Source: Haliclystus octoradiatus (taxonomy: Eukaryota; Cnidaria; Staurozoa; Stauromedusae; Haliclystidae). From it: DNA of 64,000 nt. Position 1 is the stretch's first letter. Each line of letters opens with the position of its first letter. The notes below the pieces were generated by a model that did not search any database, was not told where the DNA came from, and saw nothing but the letters and a program-made list of their open reading frames with translations. The DNA lies in NCBI GenBank assembly GCA_916610825.1, contig OU744451.1:3616345-3680344 (forward strand), written 5' to 3'. Both the position numbers and the translations under genes were made by a program. Of this stretch, positions 11,720 to 24,676 are shown one piece after another.

Positions 11720-11826
11720 GGTCGTGGCTAGATCAGGGGTAACTCAAGGACATCGTGACGTCAGCAGACAATTATACTATCATTCAGGATTTTTCAGTCT
11801 TGTACGATAAAGCTGAAGTCTCGGGC
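11720..11826. repeat. Left terminal inverted repeat of the Zisupton-like element
   Basis: About 107 bp matching the reverse complement of 24567-24675. It includes GGTCGTGGCTAGATCAGG, a near-palindromic gacgtcagc segment, and TTGTACGATAAAGCT near its inner end. Confidence 0.9.
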
Positions 11827-13622
11827 ATCGTTTCATAATTTTTAAATATGGCGGAAAGTTTTGGATTGCTGTTTCTACGACTAGAAATTAATATTTGTCA
11901 AAGACTAGTTAGATAGACAAGCCTATTGTTACGTTAAACCAAATCATCGATCTATTACGTAAAAATGGAAAGAAGTTGAAAACGATAAGACTGAGATACA
12001 TTATATTGTCAGTTCAGTTATGGAATCCATCTAATTTTGCAATTATTCAATTAATGGCTGTGCTACTGCTCAATATGACATGGTGAAGGTGGGCAAGGAT
12101 TAAGGTAAGGTTATAAAACAAATCGTTCAATGAGGAACTATGTATATAATGATTTATGAATATTATACAGGAGGTAATGTTCCAAACTGTATTTTAGTAA
12201 AATAATTTTACAGAATTTTTACAGAAGTTAAACGAACGAAGTTATTCGAAGATCAGCTTGTGAGCTTGTTCAGCATCATTTCTAGCTTCTTTACAATCTT
12301 TGCACAGCTATATGCTGTCGCTGCTGTCGCTGTGTCATAGTCATGGCATGAAGGGTGAAAGTATACTTTGCAAATCTTACATTCCTCCATTTTTCCCTCA
12401 CCATTCAATAAAAAAAGCTTGGGCATTCTGCATTTGCAGTAAACAGAAATTGCAAAAAGTCTGTTTATTGCGTGGAGATGCTAGTCCTTTCACTGAACGG
12501 GAAGGGCATCATTGCGTCATTCTCAAAGCAGTGTTTGAGATGAATGCGCATCTCTTTTGGCTTAAAGTACATTTGCTTTAACGGCAATTTAAAGCATTCT
12601 GCTGTTGCATATGCCAAGGCAAATAGGCCACAGCTATTTGTATCTTTTTGCTGTTGAACATCCATCAAAGCAATAAATAGTTCTGTGCTACTGCAATAAC
12701 TTAAAGAAGCCAGTAGACTTTGAGTATCTATGTCGAGATTATCGGAGTAATTACTGTCGTACAATTTTAACTTGTGATGCTCTCCCATTGTACTTGCAGT
12801 AACCCAATGATTCGAATTTCTGTTAAAAACTTGAACAAAGTTATTGATTGGTCGAGCTGGTAATTGCTCTGGGATCATCAGAATTGGATCCTGCAGTCCT
12901 GAAATCTCAGGAAATTGACATTTCAGCAACCAAAGACAGGCGGCTACAATTGTATCATTAAGCTATTCAGATTGTGAAGATAAAATCTGCAAAAGAAATA
13001 TATTTACTTCATTCGACATGCTTAGCATCAGGAATTTCAGGATTACAGTTTTCAAGGGTGCGTGAGGATAGATCACAATGTTAATTGATTCACATAGGCC
13101 TACCATTTTATCTCTGTTTGAAAGGTCAACTCCATTAATTCCTCCAACCTTTAACCATTGATCATTATTTGCAGAAAAGCTGCTTTCTTCTTCATCTGAC
13201 ACATTAATTACAAATATCTAAAAAAAAATACAAAAACATTACTGAAACAGAAAATTTTGAAGGTATTGTGAAATATTACAATTTTTAACCAAATAAATCA
13301 GACTAAGCTATCAGACTTTTCTTGAAATAATTTCACTAAGATCTTCTTGTAATAATAATCAGACCTTCTTGGATATGTTCATTTTGTTCTCTTTTTATTT
13401 ACTGAATGATTTTATATTGATTCTATTTTACCTTATTAAATTGGTATGTGAAAGCGTAGCTTATTAGCGTCTGTGCATCATCATTATATGTTTCCTGTTT
13501 TGTTTTCTGTTTTTTCCACCCTATGTACAGTAAAATGATTAAACAAAGTAAATTATCTAACATATGAATTTGTTGAAGTGTTGCATAATAAGCTAATTAC
13601 TGAATTGTGGCAGTTTACAAAA

Positions 13623-14455
13623 CGGAGTGGATAATGTTCCGGCAGCCGGAATCCTGAGCAGCCGGAAAACGGAGTGCTAGAGATAATGTTCCGTGCATCT
13701 CTTGTGCATGTGTAATGCGTTGTTTTCGTTTCTCTCACATTTGTTCAAGCAAGATGCAATGGCAAAGGACGGTCCTGTTCCTCTATCACGTTAATAACAA
13801 TTCTGTTCATCAATTTAATGATAGAATATAAAATAATTTAACTTAAAGTGCTGGAGGTTGAAAACACTTTATATGAGGGATTCACGACGCTAGATGCAAC
13901 ACCAAACCCGCAAACCGTTCTTCCAAACTTAAAGGAAAAGTGAACGAACTCGGCTATGGTTTTGAGTTTCAGAATTTGGACTTTTGGTATACGACAAAAT
14001 CAGAATTGGTAGCCCGCATATAGCATCAGTTACAGAAAAAGGAAATGACTAATAAGTAATTATCCCATATTATTAGCCTACAAATTAACAAAGTAAATTG
14101 TTTTGAAATATTGTTAGGCTACATAAATATTTTCTGAAATCTTTCAAGAGCGCCAAATAATTATCACAACACTCAAACATTGGAAACGCTGGGTCGCATT
14201 GCTGAAAAGCTTCAATAAATCAAACACACAATAAAATGATTGATGCATAGATCTGTTGAATATCGTTTTGTTTTATATTTATTCCAAACAGTCGATCCAA
14301 TCTACGGTGTAGGTGCTATAAACTTTTTACAAACTATTTAAGATTTAATTTGGATCAATCGACACAGCCATGTTTACTATCTACATACACATGCGCAAAG
14401 GACAACATTATCTTTTGAGGACAGCTTTCCGGCAGCCAGAACAATATCCACTGCG
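13623..14455. mobile_element. MITE in the intron between transposase exons 12 and 13 and across exon-12 flank
   Basis: Ends are inverted repeats of about 30 bp (CGGAGTGGATAATGTTCCGG on the left, the complement with a few mismatches on the right). A 9-bp TTTACAAAA flanks both sides (13614-13622 and 14456-14464). No coding capacity is seen. It lies wholly in the intron between exon 13 (ends upstream at 13195) and exon 12 (ends at 14503). Confidence 0.75.
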
Positions 14456-15070
14456 TTTACAAAAAATATGCTTTTAGTTATAATGTTTAGACCTACACCT
14501 ACTTGACAAGCCTTCTGTATGTACTGTTTTTCTCTTGATTGCTGTTGTTTTCTGTCTGACTGTATTTACATGTGACGTTTTCCCACTTCCTAGTAAAACC
14601 TCTCCTTCCTCAGATATACCAATGGTTGAGTGGGAACGTTCCATGTCTGCAACAACACCTGAGTAATCAAAATAAAATGTACAGATCATTATGTCTGCAT
14701 TAATACATACACATATTTAGGTACTACACAATACTGAAACTTGCTATTAATAATGATTCCTTTTATTTAGATGCTCGTACAATTTGTTCATACATCAGAT
14801 CTCTTGAATATAACCTGTTTAGACTGATGTCAGAAGCATTACCAACAAAGCATTCCTCTACATGATGAGTAAATTTAGTTGAATTACTTCAATGCAAATT
14901 AACCCATTGGTTAGGCTACTCACAAGGTTTGCTTGTGACATCACTAATAATAACACTCACATTGGCACGTAATTGGCTCTTGCGGGTTGTGGATTGTGTT
15001 TACCAATGATTGTCAATATTCAGGCTAAATGGGCTGTTATTTGCATAGGCCCCTACTGTGTTCATAGTTC

Positions 15071-15140
15071 AGTCAAACCTGTCTATAACGGTCATTTGGT
15101 CACATTGGAAAGGCTATAATAATGGCAGTTCTACAATAGC
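15071..15140. repeat. Fragment of a 'cctgtctataacgg' MITE family
   Basis: The sequence agtcaaacctgtctataa, followed by a degenerate complementary arm, resembles blocks at 27830-28020, 43560-43655 and 55660-56000 that share 'cctg-tata' ends and gtggtcact/agtgaccac cores. This copy is short and decayed. Confidence 0.4.
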
Positions 15141-16421
15141 TGTAAAATTACAAAATATATGAAGAAAAACATTTGGTTGTTGATACAGTGTTATGCACTT
15201 TTCATTCATCAAATCCTTGCATGCCTTATACGAAATGTGTACTTTGCATGTCAACAGGTGAAACGACACTTCTTATACACGTAGGTTTGACTTTACTTTA
15301 CTTTGAATTGCGCAGTTCTAAACATTATTCCATTGAAACACTGAAGAAAGAAAAAAGCATCAATTGAATTACAATTATACACACCATAGCGTTTGGCTTT
15401 GTTTTTCTTTCTTGCTTTCAGTTGACGATGTATAGGTGCATTTCTTGATTTCGATTTCTTTGCTTGCTTAGCTTTCTTAGGTGAGCCATCTTTGTCTTTT
15501 AATGGCAATTTGTTGTCTGTTGGTTGTTGGAATCTGAATAATTGAAAACAATGCTCAAGTTAATCACATAGAATGAACGTTATTTTTTGTCGATAACATC
15601 TCAAATATATTTACTAACCTTTCATACTTCAGTACTTCATTGAGCATGATGTGCAGCCTACCAAAACACTGTGGATCTGTAATCACATATAATGTATCCA
15701 TCACAGATTTAACTGTTGAAACACATTTATTACGATTAGAAAGCTGAAGTGGTTGTGTAGATGGTTTTTGTTCATAGATGAAGCCCTCCAAATCCAAGAT
15801 TAGACTGTTGTTGTCTATATCATCAGATAAATCAATTGACAGATCAGTGGATGAATCAGACATACTTGGCACACAGTTTGCTAACTGCCATTGCTCAGCA
15901 GATGCACAAGGGGATTGCACAGATGTGGACAGCTGAACAACGGAAGAAGAAAGAGAATTACTTTCCAAGACTTTTCTCTCTTCAGCATTGAATACTAATT
16001 CATCAAGCCTGAAATATGGATAATTCAAAAACTTTTCACCCAAAGACTCCCATTTTTTCTGATGAGAACTCGCAACAGCACATAAATGCTTGCACAGGCT
16101 TCTATTTCTTGAGAAGTCCACACATTGACATGTTGGGAGTTCATTATCATCTCCTAGCCAGACGTGATATTGCTTCCTTGAATCTTCTTCACTTTGGATT
16201 GTAAAATGTCGATCGCCAATACGCGTTATACTTTTTAAATCCAGAGTTTGTGCCCCTTCAAGTCTGATGGTAACGTGTTGTACAAGATCTTGTGGCCGAT
16301 TGTGAAAAAATGTGGGTACGATTGAAGGGTACTGTCGGTACAATGATGTTGCCTGCATGTTTAATGTCTTGTACCTATATTGCAATGAATACATAATTTG
16401 TTAAACAAGTATTAACAATAA

Positions 16422-23620: not shown

Positions 23621-23623
23621 GTG

Positions 23624-23828
23624 ATTATTATTATTATTATTATTATTATTATTATTATTATCATTATTATTATTATTATTATTATTATTATTATTATTAT
23701 TATTATTATTATTATTATTATTATTATTATTATTATTATTATTATTATTGTTTATTATTGTTTATTGTTGTTTATTATTATTATTATTATTATTATTATT
23801 TATATTATTATCATCATTATTATTATTA
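23624..23828. repeat. (TTA)n microsatellite, about 205 bp
   Basis: TTA repeat with some interruptions (tcattatt, ttgtttatt, tatcatcat). It lies just downstream of transposase exon 2, inside intron 2. Confidence 0.95.
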
Positions 23829-24566
23829 CGGTAACTGTATATTTGTAGAAGTCAGATTGTCACATGTCACAGTATTAAGAGATTACTAACTTGAACTTTT
23901 TCTTGAGACTTTTTACGTCTCTCTTTTGCATTTGCATCTATGTCATTCCCTTGATGGCAATGGTAACAGGCGGTCCCAATAGATAGAAATGGCACCCCAT
24001 CAAAAGCATGCGATATGCCAACTCCTGCTTTGTGCGACCAGTATATTCTGTGCTTCGGGTTTTTTAAGAGAGAAGCAACACTCAATTCTAAGAGCAAAGC
24101 ATATGAAACAAATGATAATTAATGGGCTTTCTATGGTTAATACCGTAGCCTGATTATAGAACAGAGCATCATATTTTTATATATGATTAAAAGGTTGCAT
24201 GACATCAAAACTGTAATGCTTGAAGCAAAATAAAGCATGGATTTGATCGAAACTCACATTTGTATATTCCTATCATAAATCTCACATAAGTATAACGAGC
24301 TATTTGACAAAAATTCATGTTTAATAGTTGACCTACCAAAGTTAGAATGCTTATGTGATCGCCGCCAGTCTGTTCTACTATTTTCTTTAAATTTTTCAAA
24401 TGCTAACTTCTGTTCTGTTAATGAACAGCAACAAATGAGATTTGTGTCGTTGTTAGCCGTCATGTTCAACCATGCTGAAGCGATTGTTATGTCAAAATGT
24501 CAATTTCAATTTCGCGCGTTTTTTGGTTTCCTAACATTGGACTGTGGACCCAGCGGCTTTCATTCC

Positions 24567-24675
24567 GCCCGAGACTTTAGCTTTATCGTACAAGCCTGTG
24601 AAAAATCCTAAACAATAGTATAATTATCGGCTGACGTCACGATGTCCTTGAGTTACCCCTGATCTAGCCACGACC
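24567..24675. repeat. Right terminal inverted repeat of the Zisupton-like element
   Basis: Reverse-complement partner of 11720-11826. Differences cluster in the inner half and include a small indel. Confidence 0.9.
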
Positions 24676-24676
24676 A

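Follow-up and report, generated by a model that had tools for sequence, protein, structure and literature searches.

The locus studied here raises the question of what kind of transposon interrupts a 64,000-nucleotide stretch of DNA from the staurozoan Haliclystus octoradiatus (assembly GCA_916610825.1, contig OU744451.1, positions 3,616,345 to 3,680,344 of the forward strand; hereafter the window, with positions counted from its first letter), and whether its transposase and protease are encoded by one gene. A full-length DNA transposon was found; it spans 11720-24675 (12,956 bp), and its gene is read from the minus strand. Based on its RNase-H core, 9-bp target-site duplications and inverted ends, it is classified as a Mutator-like element (MULE). 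In all likelihood it is a decayed copy of an autonomous-type MULE, and the single spliced gene of its better-preserved relatives would produce a five-part transposase consisting of an ALS2CR8/CARF-type domain, the RNase-H core, a SWIM zinc finger, an Ulp1/C48 protease and a PHD-like finger. An earlier inspection of the same DNA (the sequence-only reading) had described a Zisupton/KDZ-like transposon; it is extended here by an ALS2CR8 domain at the N-terminus, by the PHD-like nature of the finger, by a set of miniature elements of about 0.4 kb and by the presence of the same layout at many loci.

The Mutator-like element is bounded by terminal inverted repeats of approximately 107 bp, at 11720-11826 (plus strand; its outer 34 bp are also present in the miniature elements) and at 24567-24675 (minus strand). 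The two copies of the target-site duplication, GTGCTAGCC at 11711-11719 and ATGCTAGCC at 24676-24684, differ at one of nine bases. Outside them, a long interspersed nuclear element (LINE) at 10227-11719 and 24685-25037 was found to be one LINE split by the transposon insertion, and its reading frame closes once the element and one target copy are taken out. The split LINE cannot tell 8 from 9 bp because both cuts take out an equal number of bases. A duplication of 8 bp with an extra A was considered and rejected, as this A is the first base of the 9-bp duplication. Among the boundaries proposed earlier, the inverted ends and the split LINE were retained and the 8-bp duplication was replaced by one of 9 bp with one mismatch; since ATGCTAGCC begins at 24676, the end of the element was moved from 24676 to 24675.

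A search for further copies by the 15-bp end, which had been suggested with the sequence-only reading, produced 236 occurrences in the 262-Mb genome (117 and 119 on the two strands) compared to none for the reversed control. Among the matches listed, 25 end pairs faced each other and delimited elements of 0.38-0.48 kb (counted by eye). Nineteen of these short elements and one 6.9-kb pair had the outer 34 bp in common with the window element, and the 19 showed a mean mutual difference of 8.9%. These short elements are a miniature-element population with the 34-bp ends of the window element, and they were very probably moved in trans. Target-site duplications were inspected in 20 relatives, comprising 19 of the 25 short facing pairs and one 6.9-kb pair (L028, C2:29373600-29380720). 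An exact 9-bp duplication was present in 15 of the 20, including L028, and no exact match of any other length from 5 to 12 was found in any of the 20. L028 was also considered as a possible second autonomous copy and rejected, as its length comes from LINE-like frames (740 and 1,204 aa) that interrupt a short element. In a second family, that of L073, which has terminal inverted repeats of 41 bp, exact 9-bp duplications were found in L073 and in L074, the ends of the latter being judged by eye.

For the domain content, the Pfam query was the spliced read-through protein of the window and, for the sister copy L060 (C6:18945000-18954900), either the C-terminus or three pieces of the protein. The window protein produced matches over the cut-off with ALS2CR8 (PF15299; 129.6 bits, expected value (E) 2.2e-37, positions 5-229 of 235), ZSWIM1-3 RNase-H (51.7 bits, cut-off 27.2), MULE (44 bits, cut-off 27.6) and SWIM (24 bits). 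PHD reached 14.1 bits, which is under the cut-off, and C48 was not listed by Pfam for the broken window protein. The C48 residues H52, D69, Q104/Q105 and C111 (window open reading frame (ORF) P0001) were found in order and were invariant in five of five alignment rows. A profile search of solved structures returned PHF2 first (E 2.6e-4) followed by PHF8, Ulp protease (E 0.0045) and SENP1 (E 0.25). The single-sequence search returned a SHORT LIFE family protein (E 6e-5), which we take to be a PHD protein, PHF8 (E 0.0015) and Ulp protease (E 0.26). Solved PHD proteins matched the finger at E 6e-5 to 0.0015, and the C4HC3 metal ligands were complete, by eye, in L060 and in the relatives L073 and L075; the window copy loses its frame within the finger, and in L064 the last metal-ligand pair was not clear. 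Judged by these matches, the terminal finger is PHD-like. The N-terminal half gave nothing better than E 1.1 against solved structures, and the exon-3 peptide had no match in the phage collection.

The gene model was drawn anew and consists of 14 exons and 13 GT-AG introns on the minus strand. Exon 1 is located at 24337-24463. The ALS2CR8/CARF domain begins in exon 2 (23891-24087), continues through exon 3 (19147-19257) and exon 4 (18891-19055) and ends in exon 5 (18490-18797). The catalytic core follows with the first D in exon 6 (18046-18161; LLDATYR), the second D in exon 7 (17376-17581; VDFS), a conserved CDFHR motif in exon 8 (17040-17281) and the E in exon 9 (16601-16776; NNGIERQN). The SWIM zinc finger is encoded by exon 10 (15619-16374) and a lysine-rich linker by exon 11 (15385-15533), which is followed by exon 12 (14570-14658). 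The C48 region begins in exon 13 (13104-13217), which is continuous with exon 14 in the relative L063, and exon 14 (12242-12986, its end read from the sequence) carries the Ulp1/C48 protease and then the PHD-like finger. Intron 2 (19258-23890) is 4,633 bp in the window copy compared to 1,352 bp in L060. The extra 3.3 kb or so comprises ATT arrays at 19713-20542 and 23624-23828 and about 3.1 kb of other sequence between them, none of which is in L060; the longest non-repeat stop-to-stop frame in the 3.1-kb insert is 96 aa. The sister copy is 98.3% identical to the window copy over 7.5 kb and has the same 14 exons, GT-AG sites and boundaries with consistent phases. The 14 exons and 13 introns counted earlier were reproduced by an independent model and by L060, and the order of transposase, SWIM, Ulp1 and terminal finger was also recovered; exons 6, 7 and 9 hold the catalytic D, D and E in that order, and exon 14 holds the protease residues H, D, Q and C, likewise in order.

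The claim that phase is kept through the whole gene did not hold for the window copy. Relative to L060, it has in-frame stops at 18050-18048 (exon 6) and 12965-12963 (exon 14) and frame-changing indels at 18705-18706 (exon 5), 12477-12478 and 12310 (both exon 14); the gene of this copy is therefore not open. An additional stop at codon 1144 lies beside the 12310 indel and hinges on gap placement, and the indel columns at 12239-12241 fall beyond the stop codon of the gene. The window copy as it stands is unable to make the fusion protein, and the exon plan holds. L060 has 1,166 codons with one stop (codon 1124), within the terminal finger. A total of 7 synonymous and 12 non-synonymous codon differences separated the two copies, giving a ratio of non-synonymous to synonymous rates of about 0.44 on these small numbers.

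The same layout was found across relatives in the genome. The transposase search produced 86 matches, which were grouped into 34 loci (same-strand matches with gaps under 8 kb), and the search with the protease-finger protein of L063 produced 146 matches, of which 35 rows were used. A C48-finger match was present on the same strand, 1.5-6.3 kb downstream, at 24 of the 34 transposase loci, compared to a chance expectation of about 0.06. The association of transposase, Ulp1 and finger is real and is conserved across divergent relatives. Four groups were examined closely, namely the window with L060, L063/L064, L073/L074 and L075/L076. L063 gave C48 at 23.5 bits (over the cut-off) and PHD at 16.6 bits, and ALS2CR8 matches adjoin it. 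L073 gave ALS2CR8 at 129 bits, ZSWIM1-3 at 41.7, C48 at 14.5 (under the cut-off) and PHD at 15. L075 gave ALS2CR8 at 61.3 bits, ZSWIM1-3 at 66.8 and MULE at 39.5 and, under the cut-off, C48 at 20.5, PHD at 20.8 (E 4e-4) and SWIM at 13.6. The exon order including ALS2CR8, C48 and finger was also present in L073/L074 and L075/L076, the latter pair having no introns between exons 5 and 8 or between exons 13 and 14. The catalytic cores of the relatives were 39-53% identical to L060, with D, D and CxxH invariant in all six core rows and the E of NNG[IV]ERQN kept in the four rows reaching it; the exon-9 translation of L064, which was outside the core alignment, does not have the catalytic E.

Several results weigh against a complete five-part transposase with regular 9-bp duplications. 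Ten of the 34 transposase loci had no C48 match within reach. Seven of these ten belong to the window's own group and are L059-like, and the loss itself was seen directly in L059 only, which does not have exons 12 and 13 or the C48 part of exon 14. The C-terminus of L060 scored 19.5 bits with C48 (cut-off 20.7) and 17.9 bits with PHD (E 0.003, cut-off 24), so that in the window's group both domains are under the Pfam cut-offs and the case leans on the relatives and on the ordered catalytic residues. A structure model of the C48 piece, made with no alignment, was too poor for use (pLDDT 44.9). The sister copy is also not fully open, and the fused-gene model was built from sequence alone. For the duplications, one mismatch was found in L023 and three in L013, no convincing 9-bp duplication was found in L014, L021 and L026, and L059 had no 9-bp match, with five matching bases.

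The following course of transposition is proposed. The ALS2CR8/CARF-type domain would bind the element ends, the likely site being the 34-bp motif common to the miniature elements. The RNase-H core with its D, D and E would then cut both ends, as expected from the chemistry of its family, and insertion at a 9-bp stagger would leave the 9-bp duplications that were observed. SWIM probably steadies DNA or protein contacts. The PHD-like finger could hold the complex on the tails of histone H3, while the Ulp1/C48 protease could remove SUMO or a related tag, either from the transposase or from silencing factors of the host. This chromatin role of the C-terminal module is put forward tentatively, and we infer it with less confidence than its alternatives taken together. 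Plant Vandal MULEs with Ulp1-bearing KIU genes induce hypomethylation of related elements, as described in the relevant part of PMC13317346, and by analogy this may parallel an anti-silencing role, the part of Ulp1 itself being described there as not known.

The protease may otherwise be a self-processing device which frees the transposase from the fusion and not an anti-silencing enzyme. Ulp proteases cut after diglycine, and a GG is located directly before the protease in L060 (KVGGING) and L073 (KSGGIN). However, GG is missing in L063, L064 and the ORF of L075 (KIGNVEL), and therefore cleavage at this site cannot be general. A conserved diglycine as the point of self-processing was rejected as a general explanation, and self-processing as an account of the protease is considered unlikely.

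The single spliced gene proposed for the relatives could also be read as two adjoining genes, one for the transposase and one for the protease-finger protein, with the fusion only a choice of splice model. Introns 11 and 12 (726 and 1,352 bp) are among the longer ones, exon 12 is short, and the fused gene was read from genomic DNA. However, the phases at every junction from exon 10 to exon 14 fit together in L060, and L060, L061 and L062 all retain exons 11-13. Two separate genes are thus regarded as improbable.

Assignment to Zisupton/KDZ, with a KDZ-type transposase, 8-bp duplications and an added Ulp1 domain, was favoured by the multi-exonic structure of Zisupton genes (in the portion of PMC9297572 that covers them) and by their 8-bp duplications; the corresponding portion of PMC12730594 gives 8 bp for Zisupton and 7 bp for Kyakuja. 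However, the KDZ model (PF18758) was not among the matches of the whole protein down to E 1, nor among those of the three L060 pieces down to E 10, MULE and ZSWIM1-3 were over the cut-off, and the duplications were of 9 bp. MULEs make 8-11 bp target duplications according to the sections of PMC6446971 on these elements, and the RNase-H core, a duplication within 8-11 bp (often 9) and terminal inverted repeats were all found here, whereas neither the PF18758 domain nor the 8-bp duplication of Zisupton/KDZ was found. The sequence-only reading had named a domain search pointing to another superfamily, with a different duplication length, as the result that would speak against its own assignment, and this result was obtained. 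The Zisupton/KDZ filing was rejected on Pfam domains and duplication length and has very little chance of being correct. Finally, that the element or the related loci are domesticated host genes is the least probable reading of all, as the resemblance of long multi-exon genes with conserved domains to ordinary genes and the existence of a gene with the ALS2CR8 domain alone (L077) are outweighed by the large number of dispersed copies, the 9-bp duplications, the inverted ends, the miniature relatives and the decayed frames.

Comparison of the Mutator-like element with known systems showed both shared and distinct features. Animal MULEs (Phantom/Muta, Ghost and Spectre in the survey of Dupeyron et al. 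2019, PMC6446971, and Muta1 in PMC5225508, as far as the descriptive portions of both extend) likewise have an RNase-H core, duplications of 8-11 bp and inverted ends, and some of them also have SWIM. The main text of the survey has no mention of Ulp1, C48, peptidase or ALS2CR8, whereas the window gene has both extra domains, and the survey's table rows covered here give one or two ORFs for the animal MULE groups compared to 14 exons in the window gene. Rehavkus, an outgroup in PMC6446971, could be compared by description only; as described there, it likewise has a 9-bp duplication, a PHD finger and a MULE-like core; the description also gives it a minisatellite before the 3' end and mentions no Ulp1 or ALS2CR8. 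Plant Kaonashi/KIU Vandal MULEs and other ULP1-MULEs likewise combine a MULE with an Ulp1/C48 domain (relevant parts of PMC2528002 and PMC13317346). In these parts the plant Ulp1 is described as captured and has a gene of its own (VANC/KIU) or lies in either orientation relative to the transposase, whereas in the window element the transposase and Ulp1 are fused and the PHD-like finger comes after Ulp1. The element may work like plant KIU/Vandal without belonging there, as the layouts differ. Zisupton/KDZ transposons likewise have a large multi-exon gene but a different transposase family (PF18758) and 8-bp duplications, in the corresponding sections of PMC12730594 and PMC9297572. Animal Mutator elements are thinly described, and limited evidence in chordates is reported in the relevant section of PMC6446971. 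With a conserved five-part transposase whose last two parts are a SUMO-type protease and a PHD-like finger, it becomes a testable proposal that DNA transposons carry an enzyme against SUMO-dependent silencing together with a chromatin-choosing reader.

The C48 domain was also found in an unrelated type of transposon. The ISL2EU-like element L078 (C1:23252800-23259800) has a 917-aa ORF at 927-3680 with a YqaJ nuclease and a C48 protease over the cut-off, two PHD-like Cys/His clusters and a SWIM-like stretch, the clusters and the stretch being identified by eye. Like the window element, it bears C48, here at the end of the YqaJ ORF after the two clusters, but its transposase is unrelated (DDE_Tnp_4, HTH, THAP). 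The main text of the ISL2EU survey (PMC4482050) has no mention of Ulp, C48, peptidase or PHD. Among the matches listed, ten C48 matches had 917-aa open frames with 36% identity, and an eleventh had 34%.

CARF (ALS2CR8) is a host transcription factor. A total of 50 PF15299 matches were found in this genome and none in 14 control genomes. Forty-one of the 50 had a same-strand transposase locus no more than 15 kb away. For the other nine, five had a same-strand C48 match within 16 kb, one (C15:174595) was on the opposite strand near such an element, and three stood alone, namely C2:38761460 and C2:38762526, which form one CARF-like gene (L077), and C2:23524263. The last of these (C2:23524263-23524469) gave 52 bits with its neighbours, and no transposase or C48 match was nearby in the tables. 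L077 has a 472-aa open frame running into the ALS2CR8 region and more ALS2CR8 frames (pieces joined by eye). It matched ALS2CR8 at E 4.9e-42, and this, unlike in the element, was its sole Pfam match down to E 1. At about 6220-6430 of L077, a 48-bp unit, GKSLHVPYDGVPFINI, is present in approximately five tandem copies inside the ALS2CR8 domain and could be a real variant or an assembly effect.

The ALS2CR8 domain of L077 was 25-28% identical to the transposon domains and collinear with them through 'FYP...QNI', where the DDE catalytic core borders on it, and Cys and His residues were invariant between them. Homology of the two is strongly indicated by this alignment. As to direction, domestication would be favoured over capture because the retained segment adjoins the catalytic core. 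It is somewhat better than an even guess that ALS2CR8 originated as the DNA-binding half of the transposase in an old Mutator lineage of animals, with CARF a domesticated piece ending where the core begins, and that the SUMO-protease/PHD module of this lineage, also present in the ISL2EU-like elements here, reflects a common strategy towards chromatin or against silencing that was acquired more than once. If this is true, it offers a candidate origin for CARF, and the DNA binding of CARF is predicted to be a transposase-style recognition of transposon ends. No paper tying ALS2CR8 to transposon ancestry was found in a literature coverage that falls short of most subscription journals, Repbase and Dfam; papers pairing ALS2CR8 with transposition terms, as far as their matching passages go, mentioned human ALS2CR8 in a cancer table, as a gene silenced by LINE1, or as an entry in a proteomics list.

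Other repeats were also present in the window. The same set of tandem arrays was found twice, at 5218-5995 and 6640-7417, 1,422 bp apart, and is probably a local duplication. Retroelement-like ORFs were located at 1607-4972 and 47655-50480; they include gag-pol-like pieces, presumably of Pao/BEL type by their appearance, and a 941-aa ORF which we assume to be reverse-transcriptase-like on the same basis.

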